From a virus: DNA of 28,377 bases. Position 1 is the first letter of the stretch, and every line of letters starts with the position of its first letter. Under the pieces are notes generated by a model, which saw nothing but the letters and a program-made list of their open reading frames with translations, did not search any database and was not told the DNA's origin. Positions 1-24,889 of this stretch are shown here, in pieces. Where the stretch lies: positions 1-28,377 of IMG/VR virus record IMGVR_UViG_3300033153_001529; one strand, given 5' to 3'. The translations under genes and the position numbers were made by a program.

Positions 1-2316
1 ATCGAAAGAGATAAGGTATGATTGTGGGGCACCTGCGTCATAAACGACTTGCTCGGCAGAGGAATATACTACGTTTATTCCACTCGCCGGGATAACTAAT
101 CGGCCAGAATCTATATATGACTGGGTTTCGCTATTATGCGCATCCATCCAGCCTCTTTTTAGATCATCATTAAAGCAACTATTATACACTATATTATTTG
201 AATTAACATCTGGAGACACTAGTCTAATTGAAAAATTATCAAATGTTACTGCATCTTCTGCATAAATATCGAAATTATATCCGTAATCCCCATCGAATAT
301 CACAAATCCACTATATGTTCCAGTCCCAGTTATTTCTATATCTGGCTCTAATTCGGTTGCTCTTACTATTCTAACAATAGTGTCATATGTAGAGGTATGT
401 GCAAATGCTACAACATCGAATGAATATTCATAAGTTGCACCTTCTACAATTGCCGGCATACTAACGTAGGTATTAGAAGCATCCCCTAAAGTCTCTGGCT
501 TAGTAAGCTGCTCGTTAATTATTACCCATTCAGGGTCTGGATCCCAATTATCATGCCCACTTGTGAAATCTCCATTTACAACTAAATTTTCTCCGTATTC
601 GTATACTGGGTCACATAAATTGCAATCTATAGGTGGCACCTCATCACAAATATATCCCCAAAGTTCCTGATCTGTACAGGCAGCTCCACTATCACACTCT
701 GGATATTTCTTTAATGAGACATTCCTTATCTTTCCGGTGAAGATATTTCCCTCATTGCGAAAACAGCAATCAGACCCACTAACTGCAGTGACAATTCCTG
801 TATATACTCCATTCGCAGAATATGGCCCAGTTTCTTCACCAGCGAATTCAGCTATTATATCCCCTTTTTCATAATCGAATATCTCGAAGGAATATCTAAA
901 CTGGTCTCCTATAAGATATTGTGTGACATAGGTTTTATTAAGCGCCCAGTCCCAATCCACATCAACACCTACAATAACGCCACTGCCAACCGCCATAGAC
1001 CAAGCAGCGTCAAAACCCCAAGGATTATTAGAATTATACTGTGTTATGTTCCCCCACATCAACTCAGCATCTGCTAAAATTTCATCGCATGCTGGATTAA
1101 ACTTGCGAACATGCACATTATCAAATGAGCCAGTAAACCCATTTCCATTATCGGCAAAAAGCTCGAACATTTGACTAGATTGAGTTTCTGCGTCCGCAAT
1201 ACAAGTTCCTGAAAACGTTCCAGTTCTACCTGGCAAATCAAATGATCGAGCATCTGCTATATGCATTCCCCATTCTTCATCGTCGAGCCCTTTTATGCAA
1301 TCTACGGTATAAATGAGCATTTCCCCTTCCGTCCACTCTTGACACCTGCTATAGACATAAGGATATGGGTTTAAGAATTTTAATACTCCATCGGATATTT
1401 CCGCATCAGATTCATCATAATCTACGAACCATCCATATTTTGAATAATATGGATCGTTGAAACAACCATTTACGACCATATCGTTTGTAGGAAGCGTTGC
1501 CCTTCTAACAGATATACTATTTATTATAGCACCGTCTTCAGATTCAATCAAAACTACATTCGGAGGATTTTGATCGTAGCTATATGTTATATACTTAAAT
1601 TCTCCTATTACATCTATAAAAATAATTCCATCTCTAATTGTTGAGGTATTGTCAAAATGCCTTATTCTAAGTCTTGTATTTTCTGCAATATCTATCGTTA
1701 CTTCATAAATTCCTTCATCTAAATTGGATAGTAGGGTATGCCCTTTCGCTTGTCCATCATAATTAGTCCCAGTTAAAATTAACTGTCCTCCAGCTATGGA
1801 TGCGTTAGCATTAAGCGTCCAATTCGTAGCGTCTGCAAAATCAGTGTTTGCTAGAATTTCCGTATCTGATATTATTGTTTTATCAGACCAAATTTCCGTA
1901 CACAAGTTACAATCTCCCGGAGGCTCTATTGGGTCTATAGGCTCACTAGGTGTACACTCGTATACAGCTTTCTTATAGGCGTATAGGGTTGAAGTGACTT
2001 TCCAATGTGCATTGTTTACGAATTGTACTTTTGGAGGGGATTCGTACCAGCACCAAAAGGTTAAAAGTGTACTACCTAACTGAGCTTCCCAATCAAATCC
2101 ATTTATAAGGTCGCCAGCTTCCGTATAATGAGCAAGTATTTCTTCTTTTTGAGTGTTATTAAGAAAATCATTCACACTAACAATTTTATATGCTTGTTGC
2201 TCCCCTGCAGAGTTTAGTCCCTTCCCTATTCCATTAGTAGAGAAATCAGATTTAGTGTGCTCTACAGGAGCAATCTTAGTTCCTCTCGACCTACACCGTA
2301 GAGGGTAATTGATCAT
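1..2316 (-). CDS. Large modular tail-tip adhesin with CBM-like jelly rolls (C-terminus outside window)
   Basis: The frame opens at an ATG overlapping the upstream stop (ATGA) and stays open for 772 codons to the left edge. Residues 1-125 form a tip domain (FDWEAQLGSTLLTFWCWYES), loosely like minor tail protein M. A short proline linker leads to CNLC at 136-139. Then come five related modules of about 120-150 residues, starting near 150, 279, 411, 573 and 706. The best start is ENLVVNGDFTSGHDNW (576-591), the classic opening of CBM4_9-type carbohydrate-binding jelly rolls; others read VVNGCFNDP and VYNSCFNDD. A second CNLC at 565-568 precedes module four. It probably binds host surface glycans. 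No hydrolase motif is visible in the part seen. Confidence 0.75.
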   Translation of the reverse strand, partial: MINYPLRCRSRGTKIAPVEHTKSDFSTNGIGKGLNSAGEQQAYKIVSVNDFLNNTQKEEILAHYTEAGDLINGFDWEAQLGSTLLTFWCWYESPPKVQFVNNAHWKVTSTLYAYKKAVYECTPSEPIDPIEPPGDCNLCTEIWSDKTIISDTEILANTDFADATNWTLNANASIAGGQLILTGTNYDGQAKGHTLLSNLDEGIYEVTIDIAENTRLRIRHFDNTSTIRDGIIFIDVIGEFKYITYSYDQNPPNVVLIESEDGAIINSISVRRATLPTNDMVVNGCFNDPYYSKYGWFVDYDESDAEISDGVLKFLNPYPYVYSRCQEWTEGEMLIYTVDCIKGLDDEEWGMHIADARSFDLPGRTGTFSGTCIADAETQSSQMFELFADNGNGFTGSFDNVHVRKFNPACDEILADAELMWGNITQYNSNNPWGFDAAWSMAVGSGVIVGVDVDWDWALNKTYVTQYLIGDQFRYSFEIFDYEKGDIIAEFAGEETGPYSANGVYTGIVTAVSGSDCCFRNEGNIFTGKIRNVSLKKYPECDSGAACTDQELWGYICDEVPPIDCNLCDPVYEYGENLVVNGDFTSGHDNWDPDPEWVIINEQLTKPETLGDASNTYVSMPAIVEGATYEYSFDVVAFAHTSTYDTIVRIVRATELEPDIEITGTGTYSGFVIFDGDYGYNFDIYAEDAVTFDNFSIRLVSPDVNSNNIVYNSCFNDDLKRGWMDAHNSETQSYIDSGRLVIPASGINVVYSSAEQVVYDAGAPQSYLISFD

Positions 2317-3635
2317 ACCGCACCAGCATCCGTAATAATCCATCCACCGCTGACTAATGCTTGTCTTGCTGTTTCCGCTGCTCCTCCTGCGGTATACTTT
2401 GTATCTGGCGCGCTAAATTGCAAATCGGCCTGAATTGGTAATTGACCAGCAAAACTAATTAGCGCCGCATCATAATTAGTTGTGCTAAAGCTTGAAGAAT
2501 CTCCATATTCGCCGAAAAACAGTAGTCCTTGTACATTCGCTGTAACTCCAGTTATATCTAAAACGCTAATATCTGGATCTGAGCCATTACCTAGAAACAT
2601 TCTTTTAAAGGTAGTAACCCCAGAGGTATCCCAAGATGACATATCCGGGAGCATATCTGTACTTTCAAACATCCCACTCATATCTGTAGCGTTCGTCGTT
2701 ACCCAGGAAGAAGTATCGATTGTTGCCGAAACGGTAACATCTAAGAACATATCTTTAAATAATACAACATTAGATACATTCCAATCAGATACATCTGGTT
2801 GGCCATCCAAACTTTTAAACATCCCAGTCATATTTTGAACGGTATCGAATGCATCATCTCCATCAGACGCGGAAAGAGTTACCGGCATTCCAGTTTCCGC
2901 TATCGCATAACTTAATCTCTTAAATCCGACGTTTCCCCAGAAAGTGACTCCAACGAGATATGATTTTGGAAGAGAATACTCTATTATCGGTAATTTGCTA
3001 GCATCGAACCAATTTAATGTCCCCGTTATACTAATCGTATAATCGTCATCTATTCCTGCCGGATAAGTATGTTCCGGTGCTTCCCACCAAACATGCTCGA
3101 CAGCGGAACCATCTCCCCAATCTATCATTACGTTTATTTCCATTCCAGTATCTAAATACATTGGAAGGCGTGCTATAATCGCATCATTATTATGTCTCCA
3201 AATTATAACGAATGGATCTGTAGTCGGAGCTGGGCCTGGATCATCTGGCGGTGGATTGGGATTAATTGGGCCGGGAGATTCTCCATCACTAGCTCCACGA
3301 TAGCCAACAAACTTATTGCGAATAAGCCACATATCATTAGCTTTCTTAATCATTAGAAACGGATGAGTATAAATGCAGGTATATACCGATCCATCAGCAT
3401 GGTGCGTAAATTCAATTTCTTCGCTTTTATTCGTATCATAATGAGTCTCGAATAACGAATAATCGCTATCTGGGACATGATGATGCTCGACTATTATGTC
3501 ATAATAAAGCCTATTAAGCCTTATATTCTTATCAGATACTGCATAATTATTATTTGGCAACGAATGACTAGTATAATGGTTTATTGGCTTAATTCTAGTA
3601 TTAAGTGATTGCTTATAATCTAAGTAGCTGGCCAT
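2313..3635 (-). CDS. BspA-like (DUF285) tail tip protein with proline linker, 440 aa
   Basis: 440 residues. Residues 1-115 form a separate attachment domain (RLYYDIIVEHHHVPDSDYSL, then YTHPFLMIKKANDMWLIRNK). A proline-rich linker at 116-140 (PGPINPNPPPDDPGPAP) leads to a PKD-like domain with IDWGDGSA at 171-178 and a closing TISITGTLNWF strand. Residues 230-375 contain BspA/DUF285 repeats (MTGMFKSLDGQPDVSDWNVS and similar; four clear units). Residues 384-440 are the same cap as in the other two BspA proteins (STTNYDAALISFAGQ to GGWIITDAGAV). It is a probable host-binding protein at the tail tip. It overlaps its neighbours by one base upstream (TAATG) and by ATGA downstream. Confidence 0.75.
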   Translation of the reverse strand: MASYLDYKQSLNTRIKPINHYTSHSLPNNNYAVSDKNIRLNRLYYDIIVEHHHVPDSDYSLFETHYDTNKSEEIEFTHHADGSVYTCIYTHPFLMIKKANDMWLIRNKFVGYRGASDGESPGPINPNPPPDDPGPAPTTDPFVIIWRHNNDAIIARLPMYLDTGMEINVMIDWGDGSAVEHVWWEAPEHTYPAGIDDDYTISITGTLNWFDASKLPIIEYSLPKSYLVGVTFWGNVGFKRLSYAIAETGMPVTLSASDGDDAFDTVQNMTGMFKSLDGQPDVSDWNVSNVVLFKDMFLDVTVSATIDTSSWVTTNATDMSGMFESTDMLPDMSSWDTSGVTTFKRMFLGNGSDPDISVLDITGVTANVQGLLFFGEYGDSSSFSTTNYDAALISFAGQLPIQADLQFSAPDTKYTAGGAAETARQALVSGGWIITDAGAV

Positions 3636-4147
3636 TATCTTGCAGGCTCCAAAATGTACTTTCCAATGATCGTACCAGCCGGCGGCAAGTAATTAAATGC
3701 CGGAGGTTCTGCAAAAATTCTAGGTGATTCTAAAGTTGCAGCTGGAACAGCGAAACATTTAGCTTTAATCCAATCGTGCCCTATACTATGAGCGTAATCT
3801 AAATATCCCTTAAATATGATAGGTGCCTTTTCGGTTCCAGGAGCAATCTCGTAGGCCAACCTAACTTCAATTACAGAATCTATATATTTTGTATCGAGTG
3901 CTGGAGTATGTTCATGTCCGCAAACGTTCGTAAACCAAATAGCCATACTTTGCGGACTAATCTGATTTAACTTTATTTTCTTATCGTCAAAATCGACGGT
4001 TTCATAAGTTACATCTTGATTAGTAGTGCTGGTGTAAACCCCCTGCGAAGCACCTTCATGATCTTGCCAATTTATTGTTACTAAATAATTTGGCGTAGTT
4101 ACCTTTTTATATAGCAAATCTAAATATCCAGGCTCAAGATCTCTCAC
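3635..4147 (-). CDS. Tail tip / distal tail protein, 170 aa
   Basis: 170 residues from a GTG start that shares GTGA with the tape measure stop; a GGAGG site inside the last tape measure codons lies 6 bases upstream. The fold looks beta-rich: LVTINWQDHEGASQG, then IKLNQISPQSMAIWFTNVCG, then KAPIIFKGYLDYAHSIGHDW. The end reads FNYLPPAGTIIGKYILEP, a motif of phage proteins found just after tape measure genes (gpL or DUF2163-like). It contains Cys75 near a CGHEH stretch, which could bind a metal. It probably forms the ring that joins tail tube and tip. The exact family is uncertain. Confidence 0.6.
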   Translation of the reverse strand: MRDLEPGYLDLLYKKVTTPNYLVTINWQDHEGASQGVYTSTTNQDVTYETVDFDDKKIKLNQISPQSMAIWFTNVCGHEHTPALDTKYIDSVIEVRLAYEIAPGTEKAPIIFKGYLDYAHSIGHDWIKAKCFAVPAATLESPRIFAEPPAFNYLPPAGTIIGKYILEPAR

Positions 4148-7100
4148 ATGCCACCTCCAAATGCCGGATTGTATGTATTCATTTCATCGTTAGGGTTGCT
4201 ACTTACTTGGCCAAATCTCGTTACATGGCCGCCAAATTCTTTAACCGCATCAGTCATGTCCCCAGTTGCTTCCGAAGTATTTTCTGCAGCTTCAGTCATC
4301 GGAACTACGGCTTCTTCAACAGCTGTTCTAACGGCCGCTGCTAAGAGGGCGGCTTCGCTCACAGCCTCTTGCTTAGCTATATCCAGCCTATCTTGAGCTA
4401 ATTTATTAATTTTATCAAGATAATCCAAATAGTTTTGCTGATTTTTCTTAGCGGCTTCTGGATCTGCACTCATTTGAGCAGACCAAGATAATCCGATATG
4501 TTTATTTATTTCTCTAGTCGCCTCCAGAATATCAGCTGGATCAGTTAAAGTAGCCAACCTAGCAGTCCACATATCAGCCTGCCCTTTATGATAATTAAAT
4601 TTTTCCTCGTCAGTCATTGTATCTGTTAATATGCGCTCTCTAGTATCAGAGAACATAGCGTTTATTGCTTTACTAGCCTGATCTATCGCTAGCAATAACT
4701 GTATCGTCGCTTCTCTTTGTTCCGATAACCCTGCGGTTAGCAATTGAGTGGCCTCTATTGTACCATCATAATCTTCTATCAAATCATATACCGCGTCTCT
4801 ATGTATCGCTAGTACTTCGGTTTGTGTTAACGCCATATCCGAAATTATTTGCGCTGCAGTTTCCGCAACATTCGCTAATCCTTGTAAATTCGCTTCTAGC
4901 ATAACTATAGCATCTACAGCGGCCATTACGTTATCGTCATTTAATCCTTGAGCTTTAAAGTTATCCCACATATGCAAGGCCATGCCGCTCACTTCCTTAA
5001 ATATAACGTCATACCTCTTAATTACGAAGTCATGAAAATCAGGAGTCCCCATTTTTTCGGATGTTTTATGCAGCCCCTCCACTTCTGCCTTTACCTTGGC
5101 GACAGCTTCTGCAGATAAATCGAACACCTCTATAAGAGCGTCATCTAACTGCCCCATAGCTTGAAATGCCTGCTGCATTCCATCGAGCCACTTATCAAAA
5201 TCTTCTTGCGGTATCTGATCGTCGTTAGGATTTCCTATATGCTGCCCTTTAGCGTACATATCTCCTAGACTAGCACTTACAGCTATTCCAGTGCGCTCAC
5301 CTTGTTTTCCTATCCACTCTCTGCCCCAAGGGGTGTCTTGTGCATATCTACCGTGCCTGCCTTCCACAGTCCCAGAACCGATGCCCCCTTTCGTTCCGCC
5401 GTTTATATTTCCACCATACCCCATAGTTAATCTACTATTAGAATTTTCATCCTCAGTAAACCTAGATATGATAGCAATAACTAATGCTACAATCGCTCCC
5501 CAACCGGTTGCAGCTAACGCTCCATACCCTGCTGCTCCTGCTATTCCACCACCAACAGCACCACCAACTGCGCCAGCCATGCCACCATATTTCTCACCAC
5601 CTATTATTGATCCTATTCCGTAGCCGACTAATCCGCCTCCAACAGCTCCCATTGCAGCACCTCCTGCGCCACCCATTCCGTTAACGCCAGTCCAGCCACC
5701 TTGTATGCCATTCGGGCCAATAGCCTCGAATGGGGCGGTCATAAAAGCTCCAGCTTCTCCGACGGAGCCAGCGGCATATCCTCCCCATGCGTTATATATA
5801 TTCCCAATTCCACCCATCAAATAATTACTTAATCCTTGTTGGCCCATTTGTCCAAGTTGCCCTATAAATCCACCGTCAGCGCCGCCGACTACGCCGGTCG
5901 CACCACCGGCACCGACGGCCCCACTAGTTCCTCCGAACATTCCGGAAAAGAATCCGTATATTTTAATCGGGTTACTAATCGCCATTTTAATTAAATCACG
6001 CAACATATTTTTGAATATATCTTTTATGTCGTCAGCGAAATTGCTCCAGTCATCTTCGATTCCGGATAAATAATCGGCAAACACGTCAATAAGTGAATCT
6101 CCCATATTTTCAAATATCGCGGTAAACTCATCCGCGAAGTCTTGAAGAATCTGTGTATCGTAAGCCTCTATTTGCTTTTGTGCTAATAGATCTAGCTCTT
6201 CGTTAAACAGCTTTAGTGATTCTACATGATCTGCCGTAATTACTGTTCCATTTTCAGTTATATCATTCCAATACTCTTGCGATTTTCTTGACTTTTCAGA
6301 CTTTATATTATATCTGGCTAATTCTCTGCCTTTTAGCTTAATCATTTTCGTTGAATCGGAAATGGACTTAATTTCAGTTTTTAAACTTTTAATATTATCA
6401 ACGTGTAAAGTCTTTAGCCTCTTCATTGCTTTTTCTAACGCCCTGTCCTTGTCGACTTGTTCAAGAACTTTCATCAGCTTTTCGTATTCTTTTATAGTTG
6501 GATTTATTCCAGCCTTAATTAGCAAAATGAAAGCCTTCCCACGCTCGGTCGTGCTATCTATTCCGAGCTTCGCCATTTTAACGTATGCACCTTCTAATAG
6601 CAATAGCTCTTTTACTTTTTCTTGTAATTGTTTTTCCGCATTAATTCTTTTGGTTATCGCCGTCATATCAGCTTGCATCTTATCGATTGCCGCCCATGCA
6701 GCTAAAGATTTTTGATTAGCGGCCGTTGTAGGATCTATTCCTAAAACTCTAAGCTCAATGTACGCCTTTGCGTACCTTGTATTAATATCAACGCCCCTAT
6801 TCATTAATTCTAAAGTTGCTACTTGAGCCTTTTCCGCAGATCTTAGTTTCTCGATTAGCCTTTGCTGCTTATCAATAAATTTATCCGTGCCGGTCGTCGA
6901 TCCTATTTGCTCGTCTAGTGCTCTAGCCAATAGTCTAGCGGATAAAAATTCTGCCCCTAGTACGGCGACACCATCTGCTGATTCCTTCATCATTAGAGTC
7001 CATTCTACAGATCCCTTCTTCGTTCCGTCTGCAATTAGCGTAGTAGCTAGACTTATTTTGGCAAGTTCCTTCCCTAAATCTTTAGATGCCTCAGCTGAGG

Positions 7101-10100
7101 CTTTCGTATCCGCTATGGATTGCTTTATTAAAAACGCCGCATAATTAACACTAGAGTTAAAAGATAAAAAGCTTGGAAGGATATTTATATACTGCTGTTT
7201 TAGACGCTCTAGCATACTTAATTGTAGCTCAAGCGCTAGAGTATATCCTTTAACGTATTCAGGCTTCCCTTCACTTTCAAATCTTGATATCGCCTCTCTC
7301 GCTCTATCAACTTCTCCTTCTAATGAACTTATTTTATCCGTCAGATCTGCCACTACCATCTTAAACGATTCGGTATAGTCCGGCGAATTTCGCAGTAGTT
7401 TATTAAATTTTTCCTGATTATTGCTAGCATAAGCGGTAGCCTCGGAAACATCCATATATGCGGATTCGAGATCAGTTATTTCGATAGCTAATTGCCCCAT
7501 TTTGCTATTTTCCGTCTCTTTATTTGCTTCATGCAAAGAGTCGACGTATAAATAAACCGCGGTTGTTACTCCGACGAACGCAGCGATAACGAGTCCAAGC
7601 GGCGAAGCCAAAAACGCCAATATCGCTGATCCAAATGCTAAAATAGCCGATGCGGCCAATCTCATTTTTATAGCAAATATAGATGTATTCGTTATAATCC
7701 AGGTTAATGGAGAAAATAGCCACCTTAACGCTTTCCCGAATAACTGCAAAGCCTTCGATCCACCGACGAAGGCGGCTCCGAGCAGCCCTATCGTACCAGT
7801 TGGCCCAATAATAGACTTAAAATTTTCATTAAGGTCGGTTACTATGCTTTTCGTTTTATCTACGCCGGAATTAAAACGATCAATGCTATCTCCAACTTTA
7901 TCGGAAGTCTCCCCGACCGAATTCATCGCTAAATCGAAACTACTCAAGCTTTCAGTAGCTCCTTCTAAATTAACTTCAATGTCCCCCGCTCCAAATATCG
8001 TACTAAATACAGAGGCGAGTTCTGTTCCGGCGACCCACATTCTTCCGATACTTTTTGCAAATTCATCGAACCATTTAACAACTTTAACGAATGTGTCTGA
8101 TATTAACGCGCCAAATAGCGCTTGTAGACCAGTTAAGGTATTTTGTAAAGCTACCATAGCAGCTTGTGGCTTTTCGAGAGACTTAACCAATATACTTGTA
8201 TCGAATTTCTCGTTAATTACTTTTGCGAATTTTTCAAGGAAAGGCGTTGATTGAACCGCGCCCTTTTTAACCTCCTTATAAAACTCCGCCATATGTCCAG
8301 TCCCTTCCATCCAAGCTTCCGATGCTAATGCCATAGAACCCGGTATATATTGTCCGAGCTGTCGTCTTAATTCTTCCATCGATACCGTTCCTTTCGATAT
8401 CATTTGTTCGAGGGCAAGGAACATTCCACTCATCGCTTGAGTGCTCATATTAGTAATACGTGCAACTTTTGCGAAAGTTCTAAAATAGCCTTCGGCCTTC
8501 TTCATCGAAGTTCCAGATAAAGTTACAGCGTTGATAAATTTAGAATATTCCTTCGTAAGTGTTTGAACGTCAACCTTATATTCAATAGCTATCTTAGTGG
8601 CTCTTGTTAGATTCGCATTAGCTTCGATAGTCCTAGCGGATAGAGTTTTCGTTGAATCCGTAGCGAGGAGCAAAGCATTTCTGTAACCAAGAAAATTAGA
8701 TGTCATTTCTGCTAATTTTACTGGATTGAAAAACATTATCGTTTCTAACGTCCTCATCCTTATAAAATTCGCAACCGTAGCTTTTGCAGCGTTTCCTATT
8801 TTAGCGAAAAGCCCAACGCCTTTTTTTAAAGTAACCCAGAACCCATTCATCACTCCATTAAGTATTCTGATTCTGCCGGCTAAGGTCGTTACGGTCGCAT
8901 AGAAATGACTCATCGCCGTACCCATTCTTGTAAATATGCCACCTCCTTTTTTTAAGAATAGATTTAATTTAGCAACAGCATATCCATATACTGATGTAGC
9001 ACCAGCTAATTTGGAATATAACCCGAGCTGTTCTTTTATATATTTCGTATTCGTTGCAGAAGCCTGGCCTAATACCCTATTTGCTTTTGCCGCTCTAAAT
9101 AATCCATCAACGAGATCTTTTCCTACAACTAATCCATATTCAAGAGTTTCGGCCCTTACTGCATTAATAGTCCTTCCTAATCCGGTCAATGACGAATGAA
9201 AGGTTTTAGTAGCCGTAGCTGAAGCCATCGCTAATTTAGAATATTCCGCGATTGACATGGAATATGATTTAATCGCAGTTTTTGCGACCTCTGTTGCTTT
9301 TCTGCTATTTAGAAACGCATCGACCAAATTAGTCTTAACAACAAGCCCAAGCTCCATCGTTTCGGCGCGTGTCTGATTAACCGTTCTTCCAACGGAAGTA
9401 AGAGCGGAATGGAAAACTTCTATTCCTTGTTTAGAATTCTTAAATGCATCATTAAGCACATTAATATGGCTTACATTTGCACCGACGTTCGCTATCGCAC
9501 CAATTACGTTGCCTAATGAATCCTTTAATATTTTTACGTCAATATCTGCCTTCCTTAGAGACTCTGCGAATTTATTTACTTCTTGCGCTCCGCCGGACAT
9601 CTTGACCGTAGCGCCGGAAAATTCTCCGTAGGAGGAGCCTAGCCTTTTGACCTCGAAATTCGTTTTCTCAGTAGCCTTCGATAGTGCATTAAAGGCATCT
9701 CTAGCTGCAGATATTTTTGGTATTTGCTTCGTGTATGCATCTGTTCCGGTACCTAGCATACCTACATTAGCTCTAGCTTTGTCAATACTCTTCGATGTCT
9801 CGTCGAATGCATCGCTCATATTCATTATTCCGGCGACTTTTCTTGCTAATTGGTCGCCGGCATATCCGAATTTCTTTAGCTCTTCTGTCGCATATTTTAT
9901 TTTCGCAGAAGTTCCATCGACTCTTTGCAAAAGTTTAAGGAATGTTATGTCGACCTGCGAAAGTGGAGTCCCTGCTTTTGCTAAATCGCTAATGTAAATA
10001 GAAAGATTTTTAAGCGATGCCCCCATTTCTTTTGCTGTAATTGCGGCACGCTTCGTATTCTGTCCGAATTTATTAATCTCATTATTAATGAGTTGGACGG

Positions 10101-10425
10101 CTTTCGGAGTCATGACTAAAGCATCGTTAAGCGTCTTAATTTCTGACACTATCTTCGTAATTCCAGAATCAGATACGCCGAATTTAGATAGGCTTCTAGT
10201 TAAGGCAAGTAACTGATTGGTCGCCCCGCTCGAACTATTTGCTAATTTAAGTAGCATTTCGGTTACTTTAGATACACCTTGTCCAGCGTGCTGAAGCTCC
10301 CTAATATGTTTATTAAGTTCGACTATTTTCTTGTCGGCATTTGCGGTAGTTTTTTCATTCTGCCTCATCTTTTTATCGAAGTCGGTAGAATCAACTGTAA
10401 TTTTAATGCCAATATTGTCGGTCAT
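4144..10425 (-). CDS. Tail tape measure protein, 2093 aa
   Basis: By far the longest gene; at about 1.5 angstrom per residue it predicts a tail near 300 nm. Residues 1-550 are long helices, with a 71-residue tandem duplication at about 338-408 and 409-479. The conserved tape-measure core spans about 555-745, including KVARITNMSTQAMSGMFLAL and KGTVSMEELRRQLGQYIPGS. Residues 924-962 are apolar, as expected for the segment that enters the host membrane during DNA injection. About 1204-1330 contains a second, weaker repeat pair. DDWSNFADDIKDIFKNMLRD (1458-1477) is a common tape-measure motif. About 1498-1655 are glycine/alanine-rich with another apolar stretch. The C-terminal end is helical. No lysozyme or peptidase motif was seen. 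Confidence 0.95.
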   Translation of the reverse strand: MTDNIGIKITVDSTDFDKKMRQNEKTTANADKKIVELNKHIRELQHAGQGVSKVTEMLLKLANSSSGATNQLLALTRSLSKFGVSDSGITKIVSEIKTLNDALVMTPKAVQLINNEINKFGQNTKRAAITAKEMGASLKNLSIYISDLAKAGTPLSQVDITFLKLLQRVDGTSAKIKYATEELKKFGYAGDQLARKVAGIMNMSDAFDETSKSIDKARANVGMLGTGTDAYTKQIPKISAARDAFNALSKATEKTNFEVKRLGSSYGEFSGATVKMSGGAQEVNKFAESLRKADIDVKILKDSLGNVIGAIANVGANVSHINVLNDAFKNSKQGIEVFHSALTSVGRTVNQTRAETMELGLVVKTNLVDAFLNSRKATEVAKTAIKSYSMSIAEYSKLAMASATATKTFHSSLTGLGRTINAVRAETLEYGLVVGKDLVDGLFRAAKANRVLGQASATNTKYIKEQLGLYSKLAGATSVYGYAVAKLNLFLKKGGGIFTRMGTAMSHFYATVTTLAGRIRILNGVMNGFWVTLKKGVGLFAKIGNAAKATVANFIRMRTLETIMFFNPVKLAEMTSNFLGYRNALLLATDSTKTLSARTIEANANLTRATKIAIEYKVDVQTLTKEYSKFINAVTLSGTSMKKAEGYFRTFAKVARITNMSTQAMSGMFLALEQMISKGTVSMEELRRQLGQYIPGSMALASEAWMEGTGHMAEFYKEVKKGAVQSTPFLEKFAKVINEKFDTSILVKSLEKPQAAMVALQNTLTGLQALFGALISDTFVKVVKWFDEFAKSIGRMWVAGTELASVFSTIFGAGDIEVNLEGATESLSSFDLAMNSVGETSDKVGDSIDRFNSGVDKTKSIVTDLNENFKSIIGPTGTIGLLGAAFVGGSKALQLFGKALRWLFSPLTWIITNTSIFAIKMRLAASAILAFGSAILAFLASPLGLVIAAFVGVTTAVYLYVDSLHEANKETENSKMGQLAIEITDLESAYMDVSEATAYASNNQEKFNKLLRNSPDYTESFKMVVADLTDKISSLEGEVDRAREAISRFESEGKPEYVKGYTLALELQLSMLERLKQQYINILPSFLSFNSSVNYAAFLIKQSIADTKASAEASKDLGKELAKISLATTLIADGTKKGSVEWTLMMKESADGVAVLGAEFLSARLLARALDEQIGSTTGTDKFIDKQQRLIEKLRSAEKAQVATLELMNRGVDINTRYAKAYIELRVLGIDPTTAANQKSLAAWAAIDKMQADMTAITKRINAEKQLQEKVKELLLLEGAYVKMAKLGIDSTTERGKAFILLIKAGINPTIKEYEKLMKVLEQVDKDRALEKAMKRLKTLHVDNIKSLKTEIKSISDSTKMIKLKGRELARYNIKSEKSRKSQEYWNDITENGTVITADHVESLKLFNEELDLLAQKQIEAYDTQILQDFADEFTAIFENMGDSLIDVFADYLSGIEDDWSNFADDIKDIFKNMLRDLIKMAISNPIKIYGFFSGMFGGTSGAVGAGGATGVVGGADGGFIGQLGQMGQQGLSNYLMGGIGNIYNAWGGYAAGSVGEAGAFMTAPFEAIGPNGIQGGWTGVNGMGGAGGAAMGAVGGGLVGYGIGSIIGGEKYGGMAGAVGGAVGGGIAGAAGYGALAATGWGAIVALVIAIISRFTEDENSNSRLTMGYGGNINGGTKGGIGSGTVEGRHGRYAQDTPWGREWIGKQGERTGIAVSASLGDMYAKGQHIGNPNDDQIPQEDFDKWLDGMQQAFQAMGQLDDALIEVFDLSAEAVAKVKAEVEGLHKTSEKMGTPDFHDFVIKRYDVIFKEVSGMALHMWDNFKAQGLNDDNVMAAVDAIVMLEANLQGLANVAETAAQIISDMALTQTEVLAIHRDAVYDLIEDYDGTIEATQLLTAGLSEQREATIQLLLAIDQASKAINAMFSDTRERILTDTMTDEEKFNYHKGQADMWTARLATLTDPADILEATREINKHIGLSWSAQMSADPEAAKKNQQNYLDYLDKINKLAQDRLDIAKQEAVSEAALLAAAVRTAVEEAVVPMTEAAENTSEATGDMTDAVKEFGGHVTRFGQVSSNPNDEMNTYNPAFGGGM
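8989..9414 (-). repeat. Tandem 213-bp duplication inside the tape measure gene
   Basis: Two adjacent 71-residue units align without gaps. Unit one begins FHSALTSVGRTVNQTRAETM at residue 338; unit two begins FHSSLTGLGRTINAVRAETL at residue 409. The first half is well conserved and the second half has drifted. Adding one unit should lengthen the tail by about 10 nm. Confidence 0.75.
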
Positions 10426-14192: not shown

Positions 14193-14555
14193 TTAAATTG
14201 GGTCAATGCCCTGTGGGACAACTTTCAACGTATAATGCTCCTCGATATTAAATGGAGGGGCTAACGTAGTATTGATTACTTCAATTACTTGAGTATATGG
14301 ACGATAACTTTCGCTATCATCAACATCTAATAGATTTGTTTCCGTCGGAGTTAATGCAGCGATAAATCTTAAATTATCCGCTGTCTTGCCAGTCACTTCC
14401 CTCTTAGCAATTACAACTGCTCCATCTGCATCATTGACAGCGGTAAAGCAGCTCCAGTTTGAATCGAGAGTCGCTCCATCATCTAATACCGTTGGTCGTG
14501 GCCTAATAATTGGCCCAGTATCACCTTGGTAAATTGTATATTCTTCAACAGCCAT
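14193..14555 (-). CDS. Small Ig-like phage protein, 120 aa
   Basis: 120 residues, probably one beta sandwich. It starts MAVEEYTIYQGDTGPIIRPR, a start shared by many phage proteins of the BppU-like or immunoglobulin-like class. Further on come DGAVVIAKREVTG, the ALTPTETNLLD segment and a final EEHYTLKVVPQG strand. Such proteins occur near neck or baseplate genes and may link fibres to the virion. It begins 11 bases inside the end of the giant adhesin gene, with AGGAC about 8 bases upstream. The overlap suggests that the two products are made together, and this one could be the adaptor or cap for the adhesin. That role is inference. Confidence 0.6.
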   Translation of the reverse strand: MAVEEYTIYQGDTGPIIRPRPTVLDDGATLDSNWSCFTAVNDADGAVVIAKREVTGKTADNLRFIAALTPTETNLLDVDDSESYRPYTQVIEVINTTLAPPFNIEEHYTLKVVPQGIDPI

Positions 14556-17500
14556 CTTCTAGTCCTATAAGTTCAATAGTAGAGTCTAACATATAATTTT
14601 CAGGCAGCATAGATAGATCGAGTGTTTCTATTTCGATATCTAAATCATAAGATTCATTATCATAATTTATTCCATATGGAACGCATAATAACGGAGTTCC
14701 ACCAGTAAAGGATAAGGTTGCGTCAGAACCAGTTATATCAAATTCAACTGTTTCTGCTACTATACTATGGTGATATGCAAATTCTACATTTGTGCCGGAA
14801 ATTATAAAAGTGCCGGACTCTGTACCAATAGACTTATTATGTGCTAAGCCTATATCTTGGCCGGATATTAAGAAAGATCCATTTTCTGCAATAATAGAAT
14901 TTACAGTCTTTAATGTAACATCTTGCCCGAGTATTACATACTCGCCAACCTCAGAGGATATTGCATAACTTGTTTTAAACGATACATCCGTTCCAGATAT
15001 ATCATATTCGCCGTTAGAGACAGATATGGCATACCCTTTTCCTAAATCGACAGATTGACCCGTAATATTAAATGATACGCTATCTACAGATGCTACTTTA
15101 TCTGATAGGAAATTAACGTCCGTACCAGTAATATTGAATAGCCCAGTTTCAGTAAATAATACTAATTCACTATTAAATGTTACATCAGCGCCAGTTATTA
15201 AAAACTCGCCATTTAACGTAGATACTGTATAGTCTCTATTAAAGTCAATATCTATGCCAGTAATATTAAATACGGTAGTCGCTGTAGATAAAGTATAATC
15301 TATTAATAGTTCAGCAGGTTGGCTATTAATAGCAAAAGCGCCAGATATGACATTCGCCGTATAGTCTATGCTGAAGTTGACGTCCTGTCCTGATATATTA
15401 AACTGCCCATTCTCTATAGAAATTGCATATCCAACTGCTAAATCTACATCAAAGCCAGATAGCGTAAATTCTCCATTTTCTGCTATTAGCGAATTTTGAG
15501 CCGAAAGATTAACATCTTGTCCCGTTACGTTAAATGATCCAACTTCATTAATGAGAACGTACTCTTTAGATAATACTATATCAGTACCATCTAAAGAAAA
15601 CGCTCCATTATTTGAATTAAGGATATAATCAACTGAGAGATCAACAACAGTTCCGCTGATCGTATATCCTTCAGAAATATTAGACAAAGTATAGTCTACT
15701 GAAAGATTTACATCAAATTCAGTTATTATATATGAGCCAGACCCTGCTAATATTGATTTCTCACTATCAAAATTAACATCTGTTCCTGTTATTAAGTATG
15801 CCCCATAATCCGGTATTAGCGCATAATCACGATTAAACGTAACCTCTGTTCCAGTGAATAAATAAGAGCCAGAAAGTACATCTAGTATATATTTTATCGA
15901 GAGATTAACATCGGAGCCATCGATTAAGAAAGCGCCATTTTCTGTAGCTAGAGTATAATCTCTATCTAATTCTGCATCTATTCCAGTAATTAGAAATGAT
16001 TCAACGGTAGGGATTAATATATATCCTTGCTGGAGATCTACGCTTGCCCCAGTAATATTAAATAATGTAGATATTGAGCCTAATACATATCCCTGTTGCA
16101 GGTCTACGTCTGTCCCTGTAATATCGAATAATCCAGATCCAGCGGATAATGATTTTTCGCTATCGAAATTAACATCAAATCCAGTTATTGTATATTCGCC
16201 AACAATAGTTGATATTGCATAATTACGGCTAAATGCAACATCTATTCCCGTAATATTAAATGCAGTCGTCTCAGTAACTAATGAATATCCCTGCCGTAAA
16301 GTGGCATCCGTTCCATCAATATTAAACGCTGAGGTTATCGTGCTTAATGAATACCCTTGTTGAAGGTCTACATCAAAGCCAATTATATTAAATATGCCAG
16401 AGCCAGCGGATAGTGATTTAGTACTATCGAAGTTGATGTCATACCCTGTTATTACATATTCGCCAGCAATAGTAGTTATTGCATAATTAAGATCGAACGT
16501 AACATCGTTGCCGGATATATTAAAGGCTTTAGTTGATGTAGTTAGTGTATAGTCCTGAGAAAGAGTTACATTAGAGCCAGAGATAATAAATGATTCTGTA
16601 GAAGGAACTAATGAATATCCCTGAGTAAGATTAGCCGCCGTACCCGTAATATTAAATTCTTCTGTAATCGTTTGCAATACATACGATATTGCAAAATCTA
16701 CATCAGTACCAACTATATCAAATGATACAGTTAGATTGGGGAGACTATACCCTATTTGAAGATCTGTGTTTGACCCAGTAATACTAAATACTTCTGTAAG
16801 AGTATCTAATGTATAGTGTATCGCGCTAGATCCCTTAGTCAGTGTAACGTCTGTACCGATTATGTCGAATTGTACTGTTTCTATTGCTACCGGATGACCA
16901 TGGATTAAGCGAGTAGATCCAGTCTCACCAAGAATAATTGCCCCGAGTTTTGCGGATCCTAATGTAAAACCATAATCACCATATATATAAGTTCCAGATA
17001 AAGCATCAAGAATACTAGATGCATCTATGCCTAAATCGACAATCGTCCAAGTGTGATCTGCAATAAGTGCAGCGCGTGCAGCCACAGCACTCGAATTATA
17101 ATGGATTGTGCTCGCACCTAAAGATACATCGTTAAGAACTGCTTGCGCTTCCCACCCTATTAATATATTACTATAATTCTCTGTGGATAATCCGGATTGG
17201 TCAAATGTATTAGGAGCAGTGGTTAATCCAGTAACATTCCAGGATGCTAGATTTTGATTAAAGGAAGTAGCTAAACCAAAAGTAAAGGTTAAATTCGATA
17301 ATGATGAACTCGGTTCCCAGCTAGATATATCTTGATTAAATGCAGGTGAATTATAAAATGTCGCGTAGCATGTCGTTACTGCACTTACATCCCAAGACGT
17401 TATATTTCCATTAAATATAAGACAAGAAGAAAACGTGCCAGCTAAATTATTAACAAGACTTGTATTCCACGAATTTAAGTCTTGATTAAACGAATCACAA

Positions 17501-19164
17501 TCATAAAATGTATAGTACAGGCTATTACAGCCTGAAACGTCAAACCCATCAATATCGGCGTTAAATAAAGGACAACCCCAAAAGGTTCTTTGTATATTTG
17601 TTAATGCTGAAGTAATCCAACTAGATAATCCTGTTCCAGTGAAGGATGAGCACCCTCTAAAAGTTTGATATAGAGATTCAACTAAAGTTACATCCCAACT
17701 AGAAAGATCAGCATCAAAATCAAAACATTGATTAAAGGCTTCTTCTAGCGTCGTTATTGACGTTGTAGTCCAGTTGGATAATCCAACACCCGTAAAAGAA
17801 AAGCAATTACTAAAGGCTTTATATAAACTTATTCCAGAACTAATATCCCAGTCACTAAAATCATAAACACTTAGTGAAGAGCAGCCATTAAACATGTTTT
17901 CAAAAGCTGTTACACCAGATAAATCAGGATAATCGGTAGCCGATATATCTAAGTTAATACAATCATATGCAAAACTTGACATAGTATCAAAAGCAGCGTC
18001 GCCCCACTGCTTAATATCTATCCATTTTATATTATCCGGCGATTCGCCGAACTCAAAATTAAATGCCGAACATGTTCCTATAATCGAAACATCATACTCA
18101 CCGGCTAATTCATACTCGTGAGTTTTACCCGTCTGCCATCCAGCTGTTACGGTAGATGATTCCCCATCTCCCCAATAAACGGTAAAGTTATATGTGCTAC
18201 CAGAAAAATTAAGAGGGAGAGTAATAGACTCAGCATCAGCCGTAGTCTTCCAAGTAGTTATAAATGGATTGCCACTTATAATATTTACATTCACCCCTGT
18301 AATATTAAACGCTTCAGTAAGCGTATCTAACGTATAATGATTGGCGACACTTTCTTTTGTTAGAGTAACATCCGTGCCAGTTATAGCAAAAGATTCAGTT
18401 ATTGCCTCGGTAGCGTAACCTTGCTTTAATATTACATCTGTGCCCGTTATTGCGAAAGATTCTGGTATTGCCTCGGTAGTGTAACCTAGTTTTAATGTTA
18501 CATCTGCGCCAGTTATAGCAAAAGATTCCTCTAAAGCGTCGAGCGCGTGATGCTTAATATAAGTAAGCTCTACATCCGTTCCTGTTATTGCGAAAGATTC
18601 TGTTGTCGCATCTAATGTGTAATGAGTAACCTCTATTTCGTACGTTATCGTAAATTCAAGTTGATCTTGTAAGCAAACCGTGGAACCATAGGGGTCGTTG
18701 CCATTCTTCAAATAATTATTAATTGTAATAGTAACCGAATTGCTAGATGCAAGATCTAATCCGGTTGAATCAGTACCAGCTGAATTTTTCCAAGAAGTTG
18801 AGCCCGTTTCTAACGCCTCCGCTGATAGGGTAATGGTAGTGGCACCATCAACCAGGACAACAAGACCAGATTTTACTGAGACCCCAGTAACAAAATCAGT
18901 AACCCTGTAATCCATTGAGGCTGAAGTAACTCCTGTTACTGTTGTTCCAGCCGGAACACCCATATCCTCCCAAGTTAGCGTTCTATCCCAGTAGTTTGGA
19001 GAAGAAGTATTACCTTTATTTCGTCCGTAGCAATGCGAGCTAAGCGAGCGGAGTGGATTGCCTTGGAAAGCATTCAGCTCCATAGTAACGGAACTACTAT
19101 CTGGATGCGAAACGAAGCTCTCTACATCAGTATAAAAGGCGAAGGTTTTTACTACAGTAGCCAT
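14545..19164 (-). CDS. Giant repeat adhesin: 22-residue repeats split by a PKD/BspA module, 1539 aa
   Basis: 1539 residues, no signal peptide. Residues 1-180 are a beta-rich head domain of unknown family, probably the virion attachment part. Residues 181-297 hold five copies of a repeat of the type HYTLDATTESFAITGTDVEL. Residues 300-372 are a PKD-like domain (VYWGDGES at 329-336), and about 395-660 are BspA/DUF285 repeats such as FNQDISSWEPSSSL. Residues 660-712 are the same cap as in the 350-residue protein. After a glycine-rich linker, residues 757-1486 hold about 33 more 22-residue repeats, 32 of them in perfect register. The last 53 residues are unique. The protein is likely a long flexible beta fibre with the BspA unit as a binding domain. 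It overlaps the next gene by 11 bases. Confidence 0.75.
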   Translation of the reverse strand: MATVVKTFAFYTDVESFVSHPDSSSVTMELNAFQGNPLRSLSSHCYGRNKGNTSSPNYWDRTLTWEDMGVPAGTTVTGVTSASMDYRVTDFVTGVSVKSGLVVLVDGATTITLSAEALETGSTSWKNSAGTDSTGLDLASSNSVTITINNYLKNGNDPYGSTVCLQDQLEFTITYEIEVTHYTLDATTESFAITGTDVELTYIKHHALDALEESFAITGADVTLKLGYTTEAIPESFAITGTDVILKQGYATEAITESFAITGTDVTLTKESVANHYTLDTLTEAFNITGVNVNIISGNPFITTWKTTADAESITLPLNFSGSTYNFTVYWGDGESSTVTAGWQTGKTHEYELAGEYDVSIIGTCSAFNFEFGESPDNIKWIDIKQWGDAAFDTMSSFAYDCINLDISATDYPDLSGVTAFENMFNGCSSLSVYDFSDWDISSGISLYKAFSNCFSFTGVGLSNWTTTSITTLEEAFNQCFDFDADLSSWDVTLVESLYQTFRGCSSFTGTGLSSWITSALTNIQRTFWGCPLFNADIDGFDVSGCNSLYYTFYDCDSFNQDLNSWNTSLVNNLAGTFSSCLIFNGNITSWDVSAVTTCYATFYNSPAFNQDISSWEPSSSLSNLTFTFGLATSFNQNLASWNVTGLTTAPNTFDQSGLSTENYSNILIGWEAQAVLNDVSLGASTIHYNSSAVAARAALIADHTWTIVDLGIDASSILDALSGTYIYGDYGFTLGSAKLGAIILGETGSTRLIHGHPVAIETVQFDIIGTDVTLTKGSSAIHYTLDTLTEVFSITGSNTDLQIGYSLPNLTVSFDIVGTDVDFAISYVLQTITEEFNITGTAANLTQGYSLVPSTESFIISGSNVTLSQDYTLTTSTKAFNISGNDVTFDLNYAITTIAGEYVITGYDINFDSTKSLSAGSGIFNIIGFDVDLQQGYSLSTITSAFNIDGTDATLRQGYSLVTETTAFNITGIDVAFSRNYAISTIVGEYTITGFDVNFDSEKSLSAGSGLFDITGTDVDLQQGYVLGSISTLFNITGASVDLQQGYILIPTVESFLITGIDAELDRDYTLATENGAFLIDGSDVNLSIKYILDVLSGSYLFTGTEVTFNRDYALIPDYGAYLITGTDVNFDSEKSILAGSGSYIITEFDVNLSVDYTLSNISEGYTISGTVVDLSVDYILNSNNGAFSLDGTDIVLSKEYVLINEVGSFNVTGQDVNLSAQNSLIAENGEFTLSGFDVDLAVGYAISIENGQFNISGQDVNFSIDYTANVISGAFAINSQPAELLIDYTLSTATTVFNITGIDIDFNRDYTVSTLNGEFLITGADVTFNSELVLFTETGLFNITGTDVNFLSDKVASVDSVSFNITGQSVDLGKGYAISVSNGEYDISGTDVSFKTSYAISSEVGEYVILGQDVTLKTVNSIIAENGSFLISGQDIGLAHNKSIGTESGTFIISGTNVEFAYHHSIVAETVEFDITGSDATLSFTGGTPLLCVPYGINYDNESYDLDIEIETLDLSMLPENYMLDSTIELIGLEDGC
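14707..16896 (-). repeat. Second block of about 33 tandem 66-bp coding repeats
   Basis: From 16818 to 14707 the protein consists of 32 consecutive units of exactly 22 residues (66 bp), preceded by one 26-residue unit. The pattern is an aromatic or charged pair, a small apolar pair, five variable residues, then FxITGxDVxL. Multi-unit duplications are visible: nearly the same unit group recurs 264 and 396 bp away (near 16415, 16151 and 15755). The register is kept without any frameshift. Confidence 0.9.
18274..18624 (-). repeat. First block of 22-residue coding repeats (5 copies)
   Basis: Five units coding ESFAITGTDV-type repeats, two of them with a few extra residues. They precede the PKD/BspA module of the giant adhesin. 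At the protein level the units are very alike; at the DNA level they share stretches such as gcgaaagattc on the plus strand. Confidence 0.85.
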
Positions 19165-19165
19165 A

Positions 19166-19606
19166 TTACTGGTTCGCTATAATCCTATCTGCGATAGCTT
19201 TTATTTCAAGATATGAATCCTTAACGGCTGGATCAAAATCAGACGCTAAGATTACGCTATCATCCAATAACTTACTTACTAACTGAACAAGAACTAGAAC
19301 GGTATCTTTTCCATATAACCTAAGAGCCTCCGTGTCCTTTGCTACCCGTTCTTGATCCAACTCCATTTGAGTTTTAGTAACTACTGTATAAACTCTAGTA
19401 GCAACATTTGTTACATAATCATACGAATCTTCGGGAATAGAAAGACGTTCTATTTCTGTATCTACTGCCGGCTTAGTAATATCAACTTCTACTAGAAATA
19501 TTTTTCCGTTAACAATAGAAGAATCTTTAGTATTATATGTTTCAAATAATCCGGTTCTACTACCAATTATAATATGTACTACAGGGTCTATTTCAAAATA
19601 AAGCAT
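19166..19606 (-). CDS. Conserved-looking small virion-region protein, 146 aa, unknown function
   Basis: 146 residues from the ATG at 19606, chosen because of the GGAGG site and TAATG coupling. The first half is beta-like (MLYFEIDPVVHIIIGS and IFLVEVDITKP). The second half is helical and charged (QMELDQERVAKDTEALRLYG and LVQLVSKLLDDSV), ending YLEIKAIADRIIANQ. This layout, a small beta domain followed by helices, resembles fibre-associated chaperone or tail-fibre-assembly proteins. No family signature is clear. It lies between two adhesin genes, so a role in folding or attaching those long proteins is a reasonable guess only. Confidence 0.6.
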   Translation of the reverse strand: MLYFEIDPVVHIIIGSRTGLFETYNTKDSSIVNGKIFLVEVDITKPAVDTEIERLSIPEDSYDYVTNVATRVYTVVTKTQMELDQERVAKDTEALRLYGKDTVLVLVQLVSKLLDDSVILASDFDPAVKDSYLEIKAIADRIIANQ

Positions 19607-20658
19607 TACGCTGAACCTCCATCGGTTATAGCCCAATTATAAGTATCTGTAAGAACTAACTTAGCGGCAGTTTTGGTATATTTGGCTGTGCCAGCGTGGA
19701 ACGGAACATCGCTTTGTAACGACTGGTGCTCCCAAGCATCGAGAAGCAGATCGTAGTTTGTATCTGAAAACGCAGAAGAATAAAACATAAAGTCCATAGT
19801 GGCAACATCAGCAACGTCTAATCCACTAACATCTGGGTTAGCAAGTGTTGCCCCGTAAAACATGTAATCCATATTAGCGACGACGCCAGTGTTCCACCCA
19901 CTGATATCTGGATTCAGCGCTGTAGCATTACAGAACATATACTGCATATTCTCTACTAGTGTCGTCACCCAATCAGCTACATACGGATCAGCTGAAGTGG
20001 CCCCATAAAACATAAACTCCATACTTGTTACGCCACTAACATCCCAATCCGTTACATCTGGATCCGCTGATGTTGCACCATAAAATACAAATTCCATATT
20101 CGTAGCGGAACTTGTATCCCAAAAACTCGTATCTGGATCTGCTGCTATAGCGCCATAGAACATAGCATAGAAGCTCCAAGCTGTGCCTAAATCCCATGAA
20201 CTTGTATTCGGATTGACCAGTACCGCATCGCGGAACATACCGCCAACATCTGTTACAGAGCCAAAAGCTCCAGCGTCTGTCGCAGTAGTATATAAATTGG
20301 AACAACCGTAAAAAGCTCCATTAAGATAAGTGAAGCCTACATCTCCCCAATTAGATACATCTATGATCTTTAGCCTATCTCCAGCATTATTGAAAGACCA
20401 AGCCTCACAGGTTCCTGAAATAGTTACAATATAATCACCAGCATCATCATATTCATGAGTGGCATCAGCATCATCCCACGCTGTCACCGTTTTTAATCCA
20501 GAGTCATCCCCATAATCAACCATGAAGTCATATGTATATATGCCAGTTATTAATGGAAGAACAATACTCTCGCTTGCACCAGAAGTGTGCCATTCAGTAA
20601 TAAAATCAGATGACCCCCTGGATGCCTTACCAAATTGCATTCCATTCATACTAAACAT
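19606..20658 (-). CDS. BspA-like (DUF285) repeat protein with PKD-like domain, 350 aa
   Basis: 350 residues. After a short leader, residues 18-85 form a PKD-like beta domain with DYGDDSG in place of the usual WGDG and a late TISGTCEAWSF strand. Residues 96-295 hold BspA/DUF285 leucine-rich-like repeats of about 25 residues, with recurring MFYGATSADPDVTDWDVSGV-type units (about six clear copies). The last 55 residues are the standard cap of this architecture (SDTNYDLLLDAWEHQ to NWAITDGGSA). Such repeats are known from bacterial and mycoplasma surface proteins that bind host matrix. There is no signal peptide, as expected for a virion protein. It likely acts as an adhesin on fibre or tail. The first codons contain three methionines, so the exact start is uncertain. 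Confidence 0.75.
   Translation of the reverse strand: MFSMNGMQFGKASRGSSDFITEWHTSGASESIVLPLITGIYTYDFMVDYGDDSGLKTVTAWDDADATHEYDDAGDYIVTISGTCEAWSFNNAGDRLKIIDVSNWGDVGFTYLNGAFYGCSNLYTTATDAGAFGSVTDVGGMFRDAVLVNPNTSSWDLGTAWSFYAMFYGAIAADPDTSFWDTSSATNMEFVFYGATSADPDVTDWDVSGVTSMEFMFYGATSADPYVADWVTTLVENMQYMFCNATALNPDISGWNTGVVANMDYMFYGATLANPDVSGLDVADVATMDFMFYSSAFSDTNYDLLLDAWEHQSLQSDVPFHAGTAKYTKTAAKLVLTDTYNWAITDGGSA
19616..19620 (-). promoter_or_regulatory. Ribosome binding site fixing the next start at 19606
   Basis: GGAGG on the minus strand, inside the last codons of the BspA gene, lies 9 bases before the ATG at 19606. That ATG shares one base with the upstream stop (TAATG). An alternative ATG at 19636 would give 10 extra residues and a 31-base overlap without a ribosome binding site in the right place. 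Confidence 0.75.
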
Positions 20659-22344: not shown

Positions 22345-22355
22345 TATTCTATTCC

Positions 22356-22772
22356 TTATTCAACAGTAAGAACGCTAGCGCCGAAGTCCAATGTAAATGT
22401 CTCTGTATCCGCGAGGGTCACTTCAGAACCATAATCATACCAACCGACTAGATTCTTGCTGCCAGCAGTATCGTTATATAATGCGACATATTGGAATGGC
22501 CCCATCGAGGCGGTTGCAGTCCAGACGACGTCAGTCGCGGTCATAGTTCCAACACCACCAGATTCTGTATACAGGTTTTGGATATCTTCGCCACCAGTAG
22601 TATATCCAGCACCATTAGTCAACTCATTACCGGATATATCGGCGTATGTAGCATTAGATGCAATAGGAGCTGTATTTGTCAGCATCGCCATAACAGCATC
22701 AGTGTTAAGATCATGTACACCCAAGCCAATTTGCTCGGCAAAATCTTCAAATTTATTAAATGCAGAAGCCAT
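22356..22772 (-). CDS. Conserved phage structural protein (GPFxYxxLYNDT type), 138 aa
   Basis: 138 residues matching a family common in siphovirus and podovirus structural regions. Features are a start of the AFNKFEDFAEQIG type, the AMLTNTAPIASNATYADI segment at about residues 29-48, a GYTTGG turn, then GPFQYVALYNDT (about 91-102) and GWYDYGSEVTLADTETFTLDF. The fold is probably beta-rich. It is usually found next to tail-fibre or head-decoration genes, but no biochemical role is firmly assigned as far as I know. Here it follows the endolysin and precedes the fibre gene. An AGAGG-type ribosome binding site lies about 9 bases before ATG. Confidence 0.7.
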   Translation of the reverse strand: MASAFNKFEDFAEQIGLGVHDLNTDAVMAMLTNTAPIASNATYADISGNELTNGAGYTTGGEDIQNLYTESGGVGTMTATDVVWTATASMGPFQYVALYNDTAGSKNLVGWYDYGSEVTLADTETFTLDFGASVLTVE

Positions 22773-22792
22773 ATTTTAATCCTCTATCAATG

Positions 22793-23218
22793 TCAATAAC
22801 AACTTAGGTCGTGCCTAAGTTTACGAATGTCGTACTTCTTTTTCATGCCAGTTTTTTGAAAGTGAGGCATATCATATTTCCAAAGATCGTAACCCCAATC
22901 AATTCCTAATCCGTTGACTCGGTTAACCTCTTTCATAGCGTTAGCTACTATAATACATGCATCTTCTTCCCATTTTGCAGTACCATTGATCCACGGGACT
23001 AAATCAACTGCCAACCCATATAGATGATAACTATCTATAGTAGAACTTGCTCCAACCAAAATTAAATTTTCTTGCTTTTGGATCGAGCGTATTCCGTCAA
23101 AAGCGGTAAAATCTTGCTTGGTAATCTTAATTGCCTCTGTAACACAGTAGCTTACCTCTGGGTGAAGGCCAACTAATTGCGCCATAGATTTTTTCCCTAA
23201 TTTAAAATGAATAGACAT
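22793..23218 (-). CDS. Endolysin, M15 L-alanyl-D-glutamate peptidase
   Basis: 141 residues, the usual size of single-domain M15 phage endolysins. The SxHxxGxAxD motif is present as SYHLYGLAVD at residues 63-72, giving zinc ligands His65 and Asp72. The second motif DMPHF at 116-120 supplies Asp116, the expected catalytic acid, and His119, the third zinc ligand, with the DxxH spacing of Ply500-like enzymes. Other family marks are FDGIRS-like text near residue 40 and DWGYDLWKYD just before the second motif. It would cleave the L-Ala-D-Glu bond in peptidoglycan stem peptides. There is no signal peptide, so export would need a holin. It overlaps the preceding membrane gene by one base. The active site appears intact. 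Confidence 0.9.
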   Translation of the reverse strand: MSIHFKLGKKSMAQLVGLHPEVSYCVTEAIKITKQDFTAFDGIRSIQKQENLILVGASSTIDSYHLYGLAVDLVPWINGTAKWEEDACIIVANAMKEVNRVNGLGIDWGYDLWKYDMPHFQKTGMKKKYDIRKLRHDLSCY

Positions 23219-23953: not shown

Positions 23954-23962
23954 TGACTAGTC

Positions 23963-24630: not shown

Positions 24631-24650
24631 ATACTCGACAATCAAATACC

Positions 24651-24663
24651 GATAACAATTATC
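24651..24663. other. Small GATAA/TTATC hairpin before a membrane microgene
   Basis: A 5-bp AT-rich stem with a 3-base loop in the 48-base gap between the 56-residue basic gene and the 40-residue membrane gene. It is weak alone; it is listed because similar hairpins occur in the other gaps. Confidence 0.2.
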
Positions 24664-24678
24664 TGTGATTTAACTAAA

Positions 24679-24849: not shown

Positions 24850-24859
24850 AATTTTGATT

Positions 24860-24881: not shown

Positions 24882-24889
24882 AAGCTCCA

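Follow-up and report, generated by a model that had tools for sequence, protein, structure and literature searches.

Gene order at the locus

The window analysed here, the whole stretch of 28,377 bases, corresponds to the complete IMG/VR record (G000), and its minus strand encodes the structural region of a siphophage. On this strand the genes run from the portal end through capsid, M15 endolysin, neck, terminator, tube, chaperones and tape measure to three frames of 170, 440 and 772 residues. The capsid protein belongs to phrog_247, with Serratia phage Eta as its best phage relative (56% identity). The tape measure protein (positions 4144–10425, minus strand; 2093 residues) was recognised by TMP_3 (E = 6.9e-14) and by PHROG tape measure families. 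Its counterparts in Serratia phage Eta and Shewanella phage 3/49 have ~744 and 682 residues by record coordinates, a difference suggesting a much longer tail here. Directly after the tape measure gene lie a 170-residue gene (3635–4147, minus strand) with no family match, a 440-residue gene (2313–3635, minus strand) and gene 1 (1–2316, minus strand), all on one strand with overlapping ends. Consistent with the tail-tip location proposed in the initial annotation, gene 1 is on the strand of the tape measure gene and downstream of it, a position that places it in the tail-tip region.

The 440-residue product combines an N-terminal domain related to that of gene 1 with a proline-rich linker and DUF285 repeats (E = 7.3e-15). 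DUF285/PARCEL-type repeats were detected in three minus-strand proteins of the window (2313–3635, E = 7e-15; 14545–19164, E = 1e-88; 19606–20658, E = 3e-39), two of them encoded between head and neck genes; for a single phage, this is a large complement of BspA-like surface repeats.

A sister contig (L002) is 99–99.9% identical to the window and extends the phage by ~6.7 kb past the right end (L002 positions 1–6685). It covers window positions 15467–28377, and the whole record is without gene 1; a 40-base pattern returned zero contigs reaching past the left end of the window. Relative to the window, the sister contig lacks 54 bases (18 codons, in frame; 18705–18758) of the gene for the 1539-residue repeat protein (14545–19164, minus strand). 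It also lacks ~78 bases at about 24044–24121 (minus strand), within a 102-residue frame (23963–24271), and its own frame ends early there.

Gene 1 encodes an acidic multi-module protein

The gene 1 frame is open over all 772 residues that can be read and exits the contig at base 1, with the C-terminus lying beyond. Its ATG at 2316 shares bases with the preceding gene's stop codon; an in-frame ATG at 2343 would add nine residues. The product has a pI of 4.15, with 118 Asp and Glu against 44 Lys and Arg. Residues 1–120 are neutral (12 acidic and 12 basic residues) and the remainder is strongly acidic. The layout that we assign to the protein is a separate N-terminal domain (about residues 1–120) followed by five modules of ~125 residues, the fifth of which is cut.

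Gene 1 gave no match below E = 0.01 in Pfam, PHROG or NCBIfam and none up to E = 10 in a PDB sequence search, and no gp27-like hub or trimerisation family matched the 772 residues, the C-terminus lying off the contig. A search of 50,697 phage records yielded no close relative of the entire protein, and a scan of viral and genome contigs with six short peptides yielded none either; its gene order has therefore been seen only once. Searches for relatives of the 170-residue protein, the tail tube and the N-terminal domains also returned none.

Five related modules

Module boundaries were set by eye, and some neighbours overlap by 4–5 residues. Module 1 (M1) spans residues 152–274 (positions 1495–1863), M2 residues 275–407 (1096–1494), M3 residues 413–539 (700–1080), M4 residues 575–701 (214–594) and M5, cut by the contig end, residues 702–772 (1–213), all on the minus strand. 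Four of the ten module pairs scored above shuffled sequences: M2–M5 (Z = 6.5), M2–M4 and M1–M3, whose scores were reached by none of 300 shuffles, and M2–M3 (2/300). The remaining six pairs did not exceed their 300 shuffles. The four significant pairs together connect all five modules, and the at least 772 residues and about five related modules originally proposed for this protein are borne out.

Independent support came from other phages. A tblastn search with M4 weakly matched (E = 0.1) ZHS_9, a 141-residue protein of an Edwardsiella phage and one of 63 records at E ≤ 10. A match in a Synechococcus phage (E = 0.06) was dropped, as its protein is unlike an M4-type module. Starting from ZHS_9, we collected seven modules from other phages into a profile holding no window sequence, and searched it against ten window proteins including gene 1, against reversed gene 1 and against 200 shuffles. 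Gene 1 matched with E = 1.2e-17, the best of the shuffles reached 0.41, and no other protein among the ten passed. By domain, M4 (E = 3.3e-8) and M1 (E = 3.5e-6) were strong, M3 was marginal (E = 0.064) and M2 was matched only in part (E = 1.3). The M4 score is partly circular because ZHS_9 had been picked for matching M4, and M1 is for this reason the fairer test. A profile extended by M1, M3 and M4 matched the final third of M2 at E = 0.016 (best other row, 0.12). With M1–M4 added, M5 reached only E = 0.62, which is not better than shuffles (best, 0.029); M5 joins the set through its alignment to M2. Some of the modules in the external profile sit in proteins that PHROG assigns to tails or tailspikes (L013, L014).

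Module 4 is predicted to be a jelly roll

M4 was modelled with AlphaFold2 from ten sequences, comprising the five window modules and five from outside. The model (pLDDT 81.2, pTM 0.77) is a jelly roll of nine strands, and its nearest solved fold is a CBM16 (Z = 15.2, root mean square deviation 2.0, 123 aligned residues). Further near folds include a porphyran-binding CBM, a hyaluronan-binding module, CBM61, CBM4 and CBM22. The list also holds tailspike domains of phage CBA120 and the K2-2 spike, as well as Vip3 and Cry proteins, the latter two presumably owing to CBM-like domains of their own. At the sequence level, the best PDB matches of the module profile were to CBM4 of CenC (1gu3/1ulo, E = 0.011). 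The Pfam model CBM_4_9 (PF02018) matched no module at E ≤ 10, and matched in 7 of 14 control genomes. The jelly-roll modules expected from the initial annotation thus stand as a prediction for M4, the only module folded, whose model lies near CBM4 and CBM22; recognition by the CBM_4_9 model did not follow. The prediction supports the fold of a carbohydrate-binding module for M4 alone. A shared jelly-roll fold is not proof of sugar binding; the same fold often serves other work.

Cysteine-rich joints interrupt the module array

The protein has two such joints. Joint 1 (residues 121–151; 1864–1956, minus strand) is proline-rich and contains C121, C136 and C139; joint 2 (residues 540–574; 595–699, minus strand) contains C541, C547, C557, C565 and C568. 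The motif CNLC, reported in the initial annotation to occur twice, each time before a new module, was found exactly two times, at residues 136–139 and 565–568. None of 2000 shuffles contained a repeated 4-mer of the CxxC type. With joints delimited from the profile envelopes, the two CNLC joints, 67 residues in all, hold 8 of the 18 cysteines (P = 4.6e-5), which supports the placing of CNLC at joints enriched in cysteine. Both joints share the longer motif PPxDCNLC, and five of its seven shared residues use different synonymous codons, so the motif appears to be old and kept rather than recently copied. Judging from the sequence, a disulphide or a bound metal is the likely reason for the retention of these cysteines. 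A pattern coding for PPxDCNLC (with Leu as TTR only) identified no such joint elsewhere in viral contigs; the two contigs that it matched were both antisense to a portal-like gene and were rejected as chance.

The N-terminal domain resembles that of the neighbouring gene

The N-terminal domain of gene 1 (residues 1–120; 1957–2316, minus strand) is probably an attachment domain, and the N-terminus of the 440-residue product appears to be its paralogue. A global alignment of the two gave Z = 6.1, a score reached by none of 1000 shuffles, and a BLOSUM45 local alignment was equalled by 1 of 1000. The BLOSUM62 local alignment was not significant (168/1000), and hhalign returned E = 0.06 with a probability under 1%. 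Given the related N-terminal domain and the proline-rich linker in both, followed by DUF285 repeats in one and jelly-roll modules in the other, this pair of neighbouring tail genes resembles a single adapter fitted with two types of adhesin.

A putative distal-tail adhesin

We consider it probable that gene 1 encodes an adhesin of the virion's distal tail, in which an N-terminal domain serves for docking and at least five jelly-roll modules bind host glycans weakly and multiply, next to a neighbour displaying DUF285 repeats on a related docking domain. Virion location, docking and glycan binding are what we infer from gene order, domain layout and predicted fold. In this model the N-terminal domain would dock the protein to the tail tip, and the string of at least five modules, broken by the two cysteine-rich joints, would extend outwards. 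Binding of the modules to host-surface glycans would be weak but repeated along the array, and the resulting multivalent grip could hold the phage, or let it slide, until contact with a specific receptor. The 440-residue neighbour would present another kind of binding module, the DUF285 repeats, on its related docking domain. After the particle has left the cell, the joint cysteines may form disulphides or hold a metal.

The modules might instead be structural spacers, or decorations that stabilise the trimer of a long fibre, with the receptor-binding or enzymatic part in the unseen C-terminus. Jelly rolls can serve as connectors in known fibres, the modules are very divergent from one another, as spacers may be, and the C-terminus is indeed missing from the contig. 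However, the nearest folds of M4 are mostly sugar-binding modules and no coiled-coil or fibre-repeat family model matched the 772 residues, and we regard a spacer role as unlikely. Far less probable still is that the product of gene 1 is a host-bacterial protein, secreted or surface-exposed, that the phage acquired and that forms no part of the virion. CBM-like modules occur in bacterial surface proteins too, and so, by NCBIfam names, does DUF285; against such an origin, visual inspection of the first 30 residues reveals no evident signal peptide, the gene sits within the tail operon behind the tape measure gene, and no bacterial relative was found in genome contigs scanned with six short peptides.

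A possibility that can be compatible with the distal-tail adhesin, though we think it somewhat doubtful, is that the N-terminal domain is a divergent Dit or lambda gpM ring, making gene 1 and its 440-residue neighbour Dit paralogues with C-terminal adhesin extensions. The domain is small (~120 residues, compared with 109 for lambda gpM) and is encoded shortly after the tape measure, and none of the genes from the tape measure to the contig end could be recognised as a distinct gpM-like gene. A low-confidence model of the domain has the order strand-helix-strand-strand-strand, which we take to fit gpM; with a pLDDT of 39.6, this AlphaFold2 model was rejected as evidence. In the capsid-related phages, the gene right after the tape measure (phrog_384, virion structural) is extended in Escherichia phage BUCT789 and its kin: the protein has 164–166 residues in five of the six examined and 463 in BUCT789, and coverage of the extended form reaches 80% or more in 62 of 595 matching records, a partial precedent for an extended gene at this place. 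Profile comparison nevertheless gave a probability under 1% to lambda gpM as well as to the relatives' family, PF05939 did not match, and no PDB match was obtained for the domain. Moreover, two other genes separate gene 1, third in line, from the tape measure gene, so it does not adjoin that gene as an evolved Dit does. In evolved Dit proteins, as described in PMC7291167, loops of a peripheral galectin domain harbour the CBM as an insertion; in gene 1 the modules stand in series after the N-terminal domain. The most specific form of the paired arrangement is a tentative proposal that we would not expect to hold. In it, the adjacent genes would be paralogous tail-tip adapters that put the same docking domain and proline-rich linker beneath either a DUF285 array or five or more jelly-roll modules whose cysteine joints are conserved, with a divergent Dit-like ring bearing the two as interchangeable binding arms. 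If true, it would mean that one docking domain has been re-used to show unrelated adhesins side by side.

The BUCT789 group also holds an observation of its own: its minor tail protein (L016 positions 1501–2892), often annotated as hypothetical, has a C-terminal extension of 300 residues. We rejected this extension as a member of the module family described here, as the module profiles did not match it, although it does resemble tail-protein PHROGs.

The distal-tail adhesin would place a multi-module array of glycan-binding type in the tail region of a siphophage that is uncultured and has a capsid resembling those of phages of Gram-negative hosts, and its modules form a family missed by Pfam and PHROG profiles.

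Comparison with known tail-borne carbohydrate-binding modules

The initial annotation had regarded such tips as rare in siphoviruses, a view that our comparison does not sustain. Foldseek retrieved the M4 fold in 56 predicted viral proteins at E ≤ 0.001. Among the 50 matches listed, 39 have at least 600 residues, and those with names are called minor tail protein, tail fibre, tip attachment protein J and similar. PMC6669499 and PMC7291167 describe CBM decorations of siphophage tails as widespread, on Dit, Tal, major tail and neck proteins, and in the former, tail-borne CBMs of lactococcal phages bind host cells. CBM_4_9 appears among the domains of phage receptor-binding proteins in a Pfam-based study (PMC9230537). 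For phages of Gram-negative hosts, a CBM11-like domain is reported in the distal tail or baseplate of roseophage R4C (PMC10276861), and phage LSH1 is described as having a distal tail protein of the gpM type that bears a galectin-like decoration (PMC13243795). Gene 1 thus adds a new case to a familiar class, the CBM-like adhesins of phages, and is ordinary in kind; its putative docking domain, conserved cysteine joints and twin gene are the points worth following. Literature searches covering tandem CBMs in the tails of phages and domains of this type in Guernseyvirinae found nothing on this arrangement.

Among carbohydrate-binding modules proper, those of CBM16, CBM61, CBM4 and CBM22 are alike to M4 in predicted fold (2zey, Z = 15.2; 2xom, Z = 12.9; 1gui, Z = 12.2; 4xup, Z = 12.2), with sequence identities of 9–16% in those rows; unlike them, the gene 1 modules have no enzyme joined to them within the 772 residues read. 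ZHS_9 of Edwardsiella phage vB_EpM_ZHS belongs to the same module family as M4 (pairwise E = 9e-9), but it is one module only, encoded among head genes. Its gene (L005 positions 2956–3381) lies between minor capsid and head fibre genes, and the protein is perhaps a head decoration.

A further group comprises long minor tail and tail fibre proteins of phages that carry CBM-cenC or galactose-binding-like domains; these are multi-domain, mostly of 600–1500 residues, and share the M4 fold by Foldseek, and six Acinetobacter myophages are among their carriers in PMC11058221. No N-terminal domain common to them and gene 1 was found, and the pattern used detected the CNLC joint motif nowhere else in viral contigs. 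BppA and the evolved Dit, Tal and major tail proteins of lactococcal siphophages bear tail-borne CBM modules, as is proposed for gene 1, and domain 1 of BppA is reported in PMC7291167 to be similar to 1GUI and 1GU3, CBM4 entries that were matched here as well. The two systems differ in arrangement, the lactococcal proteins carrying one or two CBMs in loops of a recognisable Dit, whereas gene 1 has at least five in a row, C-terminal to a separate domain.
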